A stretch of 63,168 nt of DNA from the NCBI GenBank assembly GCA_015521735.1, contig WANQ01000023.1, positions 1 to 63,168 on the forward strand, in the 5' to 3' direction. This stretch comes from Pyrodictiaceae archaeon. Lineage in GTDB: Archaea; Thermoproteota; Thermoprotei_A; Sulfolobales; WANQ01. Both the position numbers and the translations under genes were made by a program. This document shows positions 40,667 through 46,511 of this stretch, in pieces. The notes below the pieces were generated by a model. It saw only the letters and a program-made list of their open reading frames with translations, ran no database searches and was not told the DNA's origin. How positions within the stretch are numbered: position 1 is the first letter of the stretch; each line of letters opens with the position of its first letter.

Positions 40667-41569
40667 GTGTCAACAAATATATCCATTATAGCACGCGTAT
40701 TAGGCGATAAGACTCTAAGATTACTCAAGTCTATATGCGGGTTTAATGGAGTAGTAGGTTTAGTTATCTATGGATCTCTTGCTAGAGGTGAGTATGTTTC
40801 AGGTTTAAGTGATATCAATGTAGCTGTTATAGGCCTAGACAGTATTGATAAGAAGACTATTTGGAGAAAACTATCAGTTGATCCTAGGATATCTCCACTA
40901 CTATTATCTGAAGATAAGCTTAAAGAGCTGTGTGTGAAAGGCGATATACTATGCCATAACCTGTTTAAGGAATCACTAATTCTCTGTGGATCCAATAGAC
41001 TTAAAGAAATAAGTATATACTATGGGCCAAGAACCACATCCTACACTATTGCACAGGCAAAAGAACTTGCACTCAACACTCTTGCAATGGCTATAGAAGG
41101 CTATGTACAAGGGAATAAGATTAAGTGCTTAAGGAACTCCTACCACAGTCTAAGATACACTATCACATACTATAGTGTTCGTACAATTCAAAGAGTACCC
41201 TTAAGGGAAAACGACTTAGTAAATACTTGTATAAGAATAGCACCACCAAATCTCTGCAAATTCTTTAACGAGGTAAGAGGTATGCGTAATACATTACAAT
41301 ACCTTAGGCTTGCTGAACTTGAAACACTATTACACATAGTTGCTACTAGCCTAAAAACAACTATTCCACCGATATCTAGCATAATGATGGCGTTAAGGAA
41401 TCTAGGAAATGCTAAGCTAATAGCTCTTAGGATAAAGAAGCTAGAAGAACATAAAGCATACGGTAGTAGAGCACACTACATAGTAACAGCTAGTATCCCC
41501 TCAAAGAAGAAGATAGTTGAAGCAGAAGTTTCATGGAACGGCATAGTATTCGTAGAAGATAGGGCTTAG
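40667..41569 (+). CDS. MNT-type nucleotidyltransferase-like protein
   Basis: A 300-residue protein. Its N-terminal 110 residues form a minimal nucleotidyltransferase: IYGSLARGEYVSGLSDIN, where the usual S-D-x-D reads S-D-I-N, so one of the two metal aspartates is replaced. The middle 130 residues are helical and HEPN-like, with a RNSYHS stretch that is not the canonical R-x4-6-H. The C-terminal 50 residues are new to me. MNT-HEPN pairs often act as toxin-antitoxins; here both parts lie in one chain, and the catalytic changes leave function open. It ends six bases before the GIY-YIG gene. Confidence 0.65.
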   Translation: MSTNISIIARVLGDKTLRLLKSICGFNGVVGLVIYGSLARGEYVSGLSDINVAVIGLDSIDKKTIWRKLSVDPRISPLLLSEDKLKELCVKGDILCHNLFKESLILCGSNRLKEISIYYGPRTTSYTIAQAKELALNTLAMAIEGYVQGNKIKCLRNSYHSLRYTITYYSVRTIQRVPLRENDLVNTCIRIAPPNLCKFFNEVRGMRNTLQYLRLAELETLLHIVATSLKTTIPPISSIMMALRNLGNAKLIALRIKKLEEHKAYGSRAHYIVTASIPSKKKIVEAEVSWNGIVFVEDRA

Positions 41570-43049: not shown

Positions 43050-43108
43050 TATCAGCAGTGCCTAGGATCCACATCCCTATTACTCGGTATTCGGCAAACT
43101 CATCATTT
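43050..43108 (-). ncRNA. C/D-box guide sRNA overlapping a stop codon
   Basis: Minus strand: C (ATGATGA, 43100-43106), D' (CCGA, 43084-43087), C' (GGGATGT, 43071-43077) and D (CTGA, 43052-43055). Spacers are 12, 6 and 15 nt, all canonical. The C box contains the TGA stop codon (43103-43105) of the upstream gene. A TATA-like AAATATAAC inside that gene (43135-43144) predicts a start near 43113. The RNA thus seems to be made from a promoter inside the coding region. Confidence 0.65.
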
Positions 43109-43687
43109 ACCTAGGTATTTTAGAGTTCTCTCTAAGTTATATTTCTTAGCTTCATCTACAATGTCTCTAGCATAGTTTTTAGCATTGAATGCTACTAGTA
43201 GAGTATATATTGAGTAGTCTACGACGCTTCTAGTAAGCTCTACTATCTTATCCTTAGCTTCACTGACCTCTAGTAAGCGTTCTGTTGGGTGACTATACTC
43301 GGCTAGCTCAAGGTATAGGTGTAGAATCCTATTCTTAATGGATCCATGTATTAATGGCATTTTAGTAATCATCTTAGCATTAAAAATACTTGCAGTTCTC
43401 CTACGCCTACCTAGTTCTCTTAACGCTGACTCAACGTTATCTCCATGTTTAAGGCTCAAGTATGATAGCTGAATACATGTTTCAAGAAGTAGTCTTAGGT
43501 CACGTAGATAGTCTAGTAGGTGTTCTTGTTCAAGATTACCTTTAGCGTTCTCAACTATTTTCTCAACTATCATTAAAGCTCTACTAGTTAACTGGTTTTC
43601 AACGTTACTGTGTATTAGCTTCACGGTTTTCCTAAGGACTATGAGAACATTATAGTTTTCTAAAAGACTTGTTGAGGCCTGCTTCAT
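43103..43687 (-). CDS. Helical partner of the RNA-ligase-like protein
   Basis: A 194-residue, almost wholly alpha-helical protein with no enzyme motifs. A YLELAEYSHPTERLLE stretch near residue 135 recalls helical bundle families, but not enough to name one. Its start codon overlaps the stop of the upstream RNA-ligase-like gene (ATGA overlap), so the two are translationally coupled and probably form a complex. Its own 3' end carries the promoter and C box of a C/D sRNA. I do not recognise the family. Confidence 0.6.
   Translation of the reverse strand: MKQASTSLLENYNVLIVLRKTVKLIHSNVENQLTSRALMIVEKIVENAKGNLEQEHLLDYLRDLRLLLETCIQLSYLSLKHGDNVESALRELGRRRRTASIFNAKMITKMPLIHGSIKNRILHLYLELAEYSHPTERLLEVSEAKDKIVELTRSVVDYSIYTLLVAFNAKNYARDIVDEAKKYNLERTLKYLGK
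43135..43144 (-). promoter_or_regulatory. TATA box inside a coding region, for the sRNA at 43050-43108
   Basis: AAATATAAC (minus reading) in the last codons of the helical-protein gene, about 26 bases before the predicted 5' end of the C/D sRNA. Confidence 0.45.
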
Positions 43688-44970
43688 TGTATCTCCTTTA
43701 GCTTTTCTACAAGGCTACGTAGTTCTCCAACAGCTTGGCCCAATACTTTATCACTACATATAGTTGCGGCAAGCTTCTTGGCAAATCTCTTAGGAGTATT
43801 CTTTCTCCTAGCACTCTCTAATTCACCAACTAGTCCACGATAGCCTAGACTTGAAATTACTTCTCTAAGGCTTTCACTAAATAGTTTATCTTCTACGAGT
43901 TTCTCTAAACTACCATATAGTTTAACTAGTTCTTCAGCATCCTTTCTAAGACCCTCATATACTAGTTCAACAGCTTTATCGCCAAGGCCTTCAGAAGCTA
44001 ATACTACAATGCTTTTCGGATCTGAAAAGTACTTTACATTCATTGCTTCAGCATAATACTTTGACGGCACCTCTATAATCAACGGGTTTTCAGGGTCACC
44101 ACTAAACCTTATGAACATGCTGCGATAGTTAAGCGTGTTTTTAGCAGTTCTCACCAGATCCTCTACGCTCTTACCTTTTACTTCAACTACTGGGACATGT
44201 GGATAGTCTATTATCTCCTTTATCTTTGATGGACCAATAAGCTCTCCTGTATCCCTACGTGCACCTACAAGGTATAATTTGTAGTCTTCATAGTGGTCTG
44301 GATCAGGTGGTAGGGGTTTAGTTATAGCTGGTTCAGGTCCTATTAATACAAATGTAAAAGTCCATTTCTCGAAGCCTCTAAGCTTATCTAATAATCCATT
44401 ACTTTCAGCTATCTTAAGAGCTGTTTCAACATAGGGGTTAATTACTTCACCATACTCTCCCATCTCTAATCTACGCTTCTCCCATCTCATATTATGTAAC
44501 ACGTATTTTGTAGAAGCCATCCACTTCTTAAGTATTGGGTCGTAGTAGAAGTTTATTTGCCATCCATCAATTCTCCATGAAGCTTCTACTACTTCTCTAT
44601 CCTCTGGAATATTTACTCCACGTACCCCTAAATCCTGAGCTCTAGTAATAGGATACGATATTATTTCTACTTTACCTGGCTCAGTAAATAATAGTATTGT
44701 TCCATTAGCATTGAATGCTACAGGAAAGTATCGTTTATAAGCTCTTGGATTCCATGAGTAAATACAAATCCTCTTCTCAACGTCTTCCCAGCACTGTTTC
44801 TGTACATACCTATTAAACACGTCGTTATACCTAGATAGCACGTAGTCTTTCTTCTTACTAGGCGAGCCGAGAGCAAAGCCTACATTCCATACTTCTTTTT
44901 CATCAGGCTCCTTACCTAGTCCAAGCCATTCATCTACTTTTTTCTCAACAAACCATATCCAGTTAACCAT
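43684..44970 (-). CDS. Degenerate RNA-ligase-fold protein (inferred)
   Basis: A 428-residue protein. From residue 80 the order of segments follows ATP-dependent RNA ligases of the T4 Rnl1 type: RIDG at 133-136 where the nucleophile K-x-D-G is expected, MASTKYV near 151 (motif Ia), FTFVLIGPE at 205-213 and LYLVGARRDTGE at 232-243 (motif IIIa), then SMFIRF near 284 (motif IV) and VPSKYY near 301 (motif V). The lysine is arginine, and the motif IV and V catalytic residues also look lost. It may bind RNA or nicked ends without ligating. The helical gene overlaps its end; a primase-like gene is divergent. The assignment rests on motif order only. Confidence 0.5.
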   Translation of the reverse strand: MVNWIWFVEKKVDEWLGLGKEPDEKEVWNVGFALGSPSKKKDYVLSRYNDVFNRYVQKQCWEDVEKRICIYSWNPRAYKRYFPVAFNANGTILLFTEPGKVEIISYPITRAQDLGVRGVNIPEDREVVEASWRIDGWQINFYYDPILKKWMASTKYVLHNMRWEKRRLEMGEYGEVINPYVETALKIAESNGLLDKLRGFEKWTFTFVLIGPEPAITKPLPPDPDHYEDYKLYLVGARRDTGELIGPSKIKEIIDYPHVPVVEVKGKSVEDLVRTAKNTLNYRSMFIRFSGDPENPLIIEVPSKYYAEAMNVKYFSDPKSIVVLASEGLGDKAVELVYEGLRKDAEELVKLYGSLEKLVEDKLFSESLREVISSLGYRGLVGELESARRKNTPKRFAKKLAATICSDKVLGQAVGELRSLVEKLKEIQ

Positions 44971-45155
44971 CCCATACTACACCTCTAAGGCATACTTGGC
45001 TCATATACCTTGGTATTATTCTATCCGTATCTAAGGATGGGCTTGAATGAGGGTGTACTATAACCCTACTTATATGTTGAAGAGTAAACCCATATAATGG
45101 TTTAACGTAATAGCAGTTTAGAGATAGAGATTCTATCCTCCTAGGCCATTAAGCG

Positions 45156-46511
45156 GTGTTGGGGTTGGTGGATAATCTTTCATGGTATGCTAGGGTTGCT
45201 AGAGAAATAGTAGAGTTCTGTCATGGTAGACAAGTATACATGGATATAGGGGGTAAGCTAGTTGAGGTTCAAGTAAAGTCTACTCAAGACGTCATGAGTA
45301 GTGTATCAAAGCATAGTGGTCCAGTAGCGTTTTTAGCAACTCCTACCCTAAACTATGATGACAGTAGGCTAGTTACACCTACATGGCTTATAGGGCTAAG
45401 ATCTAGAGATTACTGGAGACTAGGGCTATATACTGCATGGCTCATAGTAGACTTCTTAGCAAGAGAAGGAGTATCGGAGAGCGTATACTTAGCATATTTT
45501 GGTAAGGGGTTTGAGGTTAGAATACATGAAAAAGCATTACTGGGAATTAATGGTAAAGACTATGAAGAGGTTGCGTGGAAGATAGTGGAGTATGTTCTAA
45601 GGAAACTTAAATTAAAACTACAAAGAATAGTATATGCATCTAAAGGTAACATATATGTTGGAAATGGACTAGACAACCACTTACTCTACGCACCCTTATC
45701 CCTTATCTCATCTAGTGAAGCTGTAGTATACTTCAAAGTAGATGATGTAGACGAATTCGAGCCCTCGTGGGCAAACACTAATAGCATAAGATATTCGAGC
45801 AAGTGGAAACAGTATCGTGAGGGAGAAGTACTAGAGCTATACAATAAGGCTTTAAAGCAAGTAAAAGATACTAAGACTACGATTATTAAAGTAGGCAAAC
45901 AGATCAGTTGGAGAGAAGTTGATAGATTCCAGGTTATGGGGTTACTACAGGCAGCGAGATACTACTTACTAACCAATGATGTAGAGAAGGCTAAGAGCTT
46001 TGGATATAACCGTGCAGTATTCTATGCATGGGCTAAGCATTATGGTGGAAGAGTTAGATACTACTCAAGTACACGTAGAACTCAATCAACAATACAAGCA
46101 ACTAGTACTGTAGAAGATAGGTCTTGGAGGCAAGCAAGTGTTCTTGGAGAACCAGTAACAATCTCACCTCGTGGATGGTATGGTATGGGAGGTGAAGAAC
46201 ATTTACCAAAACACTACGATGAAAACATTGCTCGTAAAATAGAAGTAGTACTACCCTACGAGATAGCATGGAAAGCAGCACTCAACTACCTTAAAAGATT
46301 CCCTAAGGAAGTACTAGTTGACCAGCAAAAGTTCTTTAAATACGTTTACCAGCCAGTAAGAGATAACTTCATAGAAGAAGTAGTAGTAAAGGGTATGCCT
46401 ACAACTACTATGGAGCTAGATAAAGCAGTGAAAACTAGCCGTAGACAAGTAGGTGAAACTATTTTCAAGAAGAAGCATGTAAGCTTAGAAGAATTCCTAA
46501 AGAAAAAGTAG
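45156..46511 (+). CDS. Degenerate archaeo-eukaryotic primase-like protein (inferred)
   Basis: A 451-residue protein. Residues about 55-125 follow the order of AEP primase/polymerase cores: a strand at WLIGLRSRDY where the catalytic D-x-D would lie, a long helix, then YLAYFGKGFEVRIHE where S-G-x-G-x-H is expected. Later ALKQ and YFKVDDVDEFEPSW resemble the third AEP region. The metal aspartates and histidine are not conserved, so it would not polymerise. The C-terminal 180 residues are basic and tyrosine-rich. It is divergent from the RNA-ligase-like operon. The start (GTG 45156, TTG 45165 or GTG 45168) is uncertain. This is a weak-homology inference. Confidence 0.45.
   Translation: MLGLVDNLSWYARVAREIVEFCHGRQVYMDIGGKLVEVQVKSTQDVMSSVSKHSGPVAFLATPTLNYDDSRLVTPTWLIGLRSRDYWRLGLYTAWLIVDFLAREGVSESVYLAYFGKGFEVRIHEKALLGINGKDYEEVAWKIVEYVLRKLKLKLQRIVYASKGNIYVGNGLDNHLLYAPLSLISSSEAVVYFKVDDVDEFEPSWANTNSIRYSSKWKQYREGEVLELYNKALKQVKDTKTTIIKVGKQISWREVDRFQVMGLLQAARYYLLTNDVEKAKSFGYNRAVFYAWAKHYGGRVRYYSSTRRTQSTIQATSTVEDRSWRQASVLGEPVTISPRGWYGMGGEEHLPKHYDENIARKIEVVLPYEIAWKAALNYLKRFPKEVLVDQQKFFKYVYQPVRDNFIEEVVVKGMPTTTMELDKAVKTSRRQVGETIFKKKHVSLEEFLKKK

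Follow-up and report, generated by a model that had tools for sequence, protein, structure and literature searches.

A divergent archaeal locus pairs an RNA-ligase-like and a primase-like protein, both predicted to be inactive and probably unrelated in function

Does an RNA-ligase-like gene that faces a primase-like gene encode one part of a joint machine, or simply a neighbour? The question is raised by a stretch of 63,168 nucleotides from a Pyrodictiaceae archaeon (contig WANQ01000023.1 of assembly GCA_015521735.1; the whole stretch is hereafter called the window), which is a portion of a 167-kb contig (G000:C23) in an archaeal genome of 2.03 Mb. The locus consists of three open reading frames (ORFs), found exactly as described in a first-pass annotation: genes for a helical protein of 194 residues and a ligase-like protein of 428 residues lie on the minus strand, and a gene for a protein of 451 residues resembling archaeo-eukaryotic primases (AEPs) diverges from the ligase-like gene on the plus strand. 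The annotation considered both larger proteins catalytically dead and saw in them a non-catalytic, LigD-like complex acting on nucleic-acid ends. Comparison with intact relatives, whose catalytic residues are replaced in both proteins, bears out the first idea and lends no support to the second. The favoured reading, to which we give a probability of roughly 0.57, is that the locus holds two unrelated pseudoenzymes, separate non-catalytic nucleic-acid-binding neighbours that need not act together and whose functions we infer.

The ligase-like gene (43684..44970, minus strand) encodes a protein of the T4 RNA ligase 1 (Rnl1) type; the first-pass annotation had recognized in it the motif order of ATP-dependent RNA ligases. 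Its AlphaFold2 model, built from an input alignment of 20 sequences, reaches a predicted local distance difference test (pLDDT) score of 94 and a predicted template-modelling score of 0.88. In Foldseek searches the best match of the model in the PDB is T4 Rnl1 (E 3.5e-12, 412 aligned columns) and the best viral matches in BFVD are phage ligases of the same type, which is why the protein is assigned to the Rnl1-type fold. The next-best PDB match is the archaeal ATP-dependent ligase Rnl3 (5d1o, E 6.2e-7), a group that includes the Mth and Pab ligases and is structurally farther from the protein than Rnl1. The predicted likeness to T4 Rnl1 (PF09511, RNA_lig_T4_1) is nearly full-length, covering the nucleotidyltransferase core and the helical C-terminal part. 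At the sequence level, the 428-residue protein alone has no Pfam match; indeed, single-sequence searches of Pfam, NCBIfam, PHROG and the PDB gave nothing convincing for any of the three proteins taken one by one. A profile of the aligned family gave chance matches only, mostly to helical proteins, when compared with PDB sequences.

Kinship by descent is provided by intermediate sequences. The family to which the 428-residue protein belongs, called R-type after the arginine of its motif I, was examined in 31 sequences, all archaeal cellular genes, with a mean pairwise identity of 38%. Its profile finds proteins of 333-357 residues (E 6.5e-12 to 4e-9) in family f6, which we take to be Ignicoccus-type. 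These K-type relatives retain the motifs EKLDG, the motif IIIa glutamate, EG and KxKS; one K-type protein matches PF09511 (E 3.7e-7) and also aligns weakly with T4 Rnl1 through the RG, KFFN and KEDG motifs. The K-type set comprises five proteins, those of f6 and one of family f5, and is separated from the R-type by a single split in the tree (support 100/99). PF09511 matches occur in eight genomes of the class, belonging to f5 and f6. One of these, G092, holds both an R-type gene and a PF09511-type ligase gene (on C15 and C35), which shows that the R-type has not just taken the place of the active form. Ligase homologues were found in 20 of 147 genomes of the order, and profile matches, weak ones included, in 36 of 229 genomes of the class; a sample of the phylum gave one match outside the order. 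A scan of GTDB genomes recovered 24 ligase loci, in metagenome-assembled genomes named Desulfurococcales, Sulfolobales, Acidilobaceae and Thermoproteales, among others. The genome carrying the locus has two separate matches to PF09414 (RNA_ligase). In Ignicoccus-type genomes, the K-type gene is followed by a conserved ORF of 121-148 residues without a Pfam match (L167:5135-6513, L168, L169 and L171).

The R-type proteins differ from T4 Rnl1 at the nucleophile and at catalytic residues of motifs IIIa, IV and V. In the window protein, motif I reads RIDG (R133-G136, 44563..44574, minus strand), and R133 aligns with the lysine of KxDG that becomes adenylylated in active ligases; the residue is lysine in all five K-type proteins and arginine in 31/31 R-type proteins. 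The motif IIIa glutamate is replaced by V, M, I, S or N in the 31 sequences. As the first-pass annotation had pointed out for the window protein, motifs IV and V are altered too, and the alteration extends to the whole family: in motif IV the glutamate has become arginine (24/31) or proline (7/31) and the glycine serine (30/31) or alanine (1/31), while in motif V the first lysine, conserved in all K-type proteins, has become glutamate (29/31) or aspartate (2/31), as at E300 of the window protein (44071..44073, minus strand). The motif order is shared with T4 Rnl1, and the aspartate and glycine of motif I, together with the motif V serine, are invariant. The altered site is conserved, with a mean entropy of 0.70 over the catalytic-site columns versus 1.85 over the whole alignment. 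Since all 31 proteins share the changes and the intact K-type relatives split off as one group, loss of catalysis is taken to be ancestral, and the altered site to have been kept. Judged from these residues, the R-type proteins are catalytically dead in all members and not just at this locus; sequence and predicted fold together indicate that they are a deep, monophyletic, inactive branch of T4 Rnl1-type RNA ligases.

The divergent gene (45156..46511, plus strand) raises the same question for another enzyme. The first-pass annotation had recognized an AEP layout lacking the D-x-D and the histidine, and this diagnosis is confirmed. The AlphaFold2 model (pLDDT 84) matches Prim-PolC (1.3e-4), human PriS, CAPP and the LigD polymerase domain in Foldseek, with E values of about 1e-4 to 1e-2. 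Membership of the AEP superfamily by descent is further indicated by PF01896, which is matched by 6/23 members of the family (best 8.7e-5); three members match TIGR00335 weakly, and the family profile finds PriS structures weakly. Homologues occur in 57/147 genomes of the order and 100/250 of the phylum sample. Most of them retain the motifs WDID, SGxGxHxR and KRxFTxPLSLHR, in keeping with the DxD, SGxGxH and KR..P.SLH of PriS, Prim-PolC and the LigD polymerase domain, from which a C-terminal domain of its own and a tail resembling a PCNA box set the family apart. All of the catalytic residues are missing from the window copy: in the motif-column alignment, L78-I79-G80 (45387..45395, plus strand) replaces D-x-D, E120 (45513..45515, plus strand) replaces the histidine of SGxGxH, and neither KR nor HR is found. 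An intact paralogue, with FWDID, SGEGVHVRIHE, the C-terminal domain and the tail GSLDSFLKK, lies on the same contig about 50 kb away (C23:95827-97143; L054:13795-15153), and the sole PF01896 match of the genome, taken as PriS, lies elsewhere (C5:34858). By its motifs, the 451-residue protein is an inactive copy, a degenerate paralogue, of a widespread and mostly intact AEP family.

The part of this family that is best conserved is not the AEP domain but the C-terminal domain (residues about 257-412; 45924..46391, plus strand), which is encoded alone, as proteins of 168-278 residues, in several genomes; beyond the order, the AEP part too is commonly a protein by itself, about 300 residues long. 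Among the stand-alone domains seen outside the order (168-216 residues, L226-L245), two end in QTTLF. The tail of the window copy carries the PCNA-box-like motif HVSLEEFL (46476..46499, plus strand). Such a motif, [LIM]xx[FWY]h, is present in 36/39 tails, including those of inactive and C-domain-only copies, versus a mean of 2.7 and a maximum of 9 in shuffled tails. This conserved, C-terminal PIP-like motif is what is expected of a PCNA client, and recruitment of the family by PCNA is thus likely. Elsewhere among the archaeal classes, a gene for a KaiC-type RecA-like ATPase is a frequent immediate neighbour of the AEP gene; 11/20 loci contain one. Intact members would probably be PCNA-recruited primase-polymerases for repair or gap filling. 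Because its C-terminal domain and tail are kept, the window copy most likely occupies PCNA or the partner of the C-terminal domain; it would do so without synthesis, and would compete for, or be carried by, PCNA.

An unlikely alternative is that the window copy has no function at all and is a duplicate in decay. Consistent with decay, a tree of the C-terminal domain places it beside intact copies of its own family (77/94 and 86/93 in two runs) and its AEP domain has evolved fast (branch length 1.88 versus 0.75 for the C-terminal domain). The tree of the AEP domain, however, groups it with inactive copies from other genomes (89/98, the branches being long), and approximately unbiased tests reject neither this placement, a single clade of inactive copies, nor that of the C-terminal-domain tree. 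The ORF is moreover intact over its 451 codons, without stops, and retains the C-terminal domain and the PCNA-box-like tail. Further inactive copies are found in G085, G109, G091, G079, G115, G126 and G006. Recurrence of inactive copies with the same parts retained, in six f3 genomes and one f6 genome, argues against decay.

For the ligase-like protein, the corresponding issue is what a site without its lysine is used for. Self-adenylylation would have been lost before the R-type branch radiated, and the old ATP site would have been rebuilt (K to R, E to R or P, K to E or D) and retained afterwards. Given the kinship with Rnl1 and the Rnl1-like helical C-terminal part, RNA binding without adenylylation is the most likely activity: the R-type proteins would still hold RNA, probably a structured or broken end, by means of the nucleotidyltransferase cleft together with the helical C-terminal domain, and would serve as protectors, sensors or adaptors instead of joiners.

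It is improbable, in our estimation, that the R-type proteins are still enzymes whose rebuilt pocket binds a nucleotide and supports another reaction, such as noncovalent nucleotidyl transfer or hydrolysis of RNA ends. Such an activity could explain the strictly invariant polar residues R133, D135, T154, H159, N160, R238 and S303, located at or around the former motifs, and the two invariant cysteines C60 and C69. The nearest precedent is a deviant RNA ligase 2 of diplonemids, for which modelling predicts a rewired ATP pocket and whose motif I lysine is retained (PMC4599027). In the R-type proteins, the residues for phosphate and metal (the R54-like arginine, the motif IIIa and motif IV glutamates and the motif V lysine) are all replaced, and the neighbouring genes give no hint of a reaction. 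A non-catalytic role of the R-type proteins is preferred.

The question of whether the two proteins work together can now be addressed. In the complex proposed by the first-pass annotation, both inactive proteins, perhaps joined by the helical one, would form a single non-catalytic assembly on nucleic-acid ends, a dead counterpart of LigD-type end joining, in which a LigD polymerase domain, an ATP ligase and Ku cooperate. The likeness is that an AEP and a protein of ligase fold are encoded in one locus. The differences are that the ligase here is of the RNA type and not of the DNA type, that both proteins are inactive, that no match to Ku (PF02735) was found in the genome and that the linkage is rare. 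An AEP gene is found nearby in only 2/31 R-type ligase loci, some of which lie at contig ends: in the window and in G085, the latter belonging to another family. The divergent arrangement, whose conservation the annotation had put up for testing, is likewise restricted to these two. In G085 the ligase and an inactive AEP are also divergent, with three small ORFs between them, one encoding a LigT-type phosphoesterase. The latter (L064:9707-10243), akin to LigT/2'-5' RNA ligases, is divergent from the R-type ligase.

This arrangement speaks for a joint complex, as does the linkage of the two genes in two of the three sampled genomes (G000, G085 and G079) in which an R-type ligase and an inactive AEP are both present. 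Against it, 29/31 R-type loci have no AEP nearby, and the two families are not associated at the genome level: in the sample of the order, searched with a single AEP query sequence, an AEP of this family occurs in 6/20 ligase genomes versus 51/127 others (Fisher p 0.46, no enrichment) and was not found in 14/20 ligase genomes. Inactive AEPs also occur near trpS without a ligase, in G109, G091 and G126. With 2/31 loci linked and no enriched co-occurrence, no joint complex is needed. The helical protein (43103..43687, minus strand) adds nothing in its favour: its gene is indeed joined to the stop of the ligase gene by a four-base ATGA overlap (43684-43687), as the annotation had noted, but its relatives in seven other genomes lie in unrelated contexts and none was found beside a ligase, so that it is not conserved in the ligase locus. 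Its match to the Avd four-helix model NF033474 is weak (E 0.014, 15.7 bits, cut-off 80). The annotation had asked for structure prediction with Foldseek searches, and named catalytically intact homologues in unlinked contexts as evidence against itself. Both folds were recovered; most AEP relatives and the K-type Rnl1-like relatives are intact, and such homologues lie in unlinked places, which counts against the joint complex by the annotation's own rule. We regard it as very doubtful. Most improbable of all is a composite in which the RNA-ligase site, its charges rearranged, reads RNA ends or nucleotides and is paired in some lineages with a PCNA-tethered inactive primase, forming a non-catalytic bridge between RNA end and clamp.

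Certain observations weigh against two separate pseudoenzymes with the roles given above. In two different families, f1 and f3, the ligase lies by an inactive AEP and close to the same DUF123 gene; this goes beyond random placement, and a link confined to some lineages may exist. In a few lineages the two proteins could thus share a function, but this is not supported. In G109 and G091 an inactive AEP occurs near a DUF123-like gene where no ligase is present, so the AEP-DUF123 pairing may go back to an old block of the chromosome. As regards the roles, PCNA binding is deduced from a motif, the full form of which, Qxx[LIM]xx[FWY] with the canonical leading glutamine, is present in only 4/39 tails, and the choice of RNA over DNA as the R-type ligand comes solely from kinship with Rnl1.

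No regulatory element was identified in the 185-bp intergenic region between the divergent genes (44971..45155). One flank encodes a Polbeta-type nucleotidyltransferase, a DUF123 (GIY-like) protein, an Ssb-like OB protein and a PqqD-like protein; the nucleotidyltransferase (40667-41569 of the window) has 300 residues and sub-threshold Pfam matches. The other flank encodes MoeA and a transglutaminase-like protein. Among the loci compared, the R-type ligase has no general conserved neighbour: glmS directly follows it in five f2 loci of one genus (L056-L059 and L173), an aldolase gene lies near it in four loci and a metallophosphatase gene in four. A mobile-element origin of the locus was considered and rejected, as viral, plasmid, phage and tRNA searches gave no support. 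No relatives of the ligase or AEP alignments were found in IMG/VR viral contigs, none of the ligase among phages and none among plasmids with the intact AEP as query; the AEP gave a single weak partial match to phages, and no tRNA was found in the window.

In the open-access papers searched (subscription journals were not covered), no description was found of the R-type Rnl1 branch or of this AEP family, and the R-type ligase family appears to be undescribed. The passages found in a survey of AEP families by Kazlauskas and co-workers name no crenarchaeal members other than pRN1-like plasmid proteins and PriX (PMC5862659). Maintenance of a branch of ligase pseudoenzymes across an archaeal class would demonstrate that the fold is useful without ligation, and would open the direct question of the ligand of a ligase without its lysine. 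The AEP side brings up what appears to be an uncharacterised family of archaeal primases, which has a PCNA-box-like tail and a KaiC-type ATPase as neighbour and is relevant to the repair of broken DNA in archaea without Ku.

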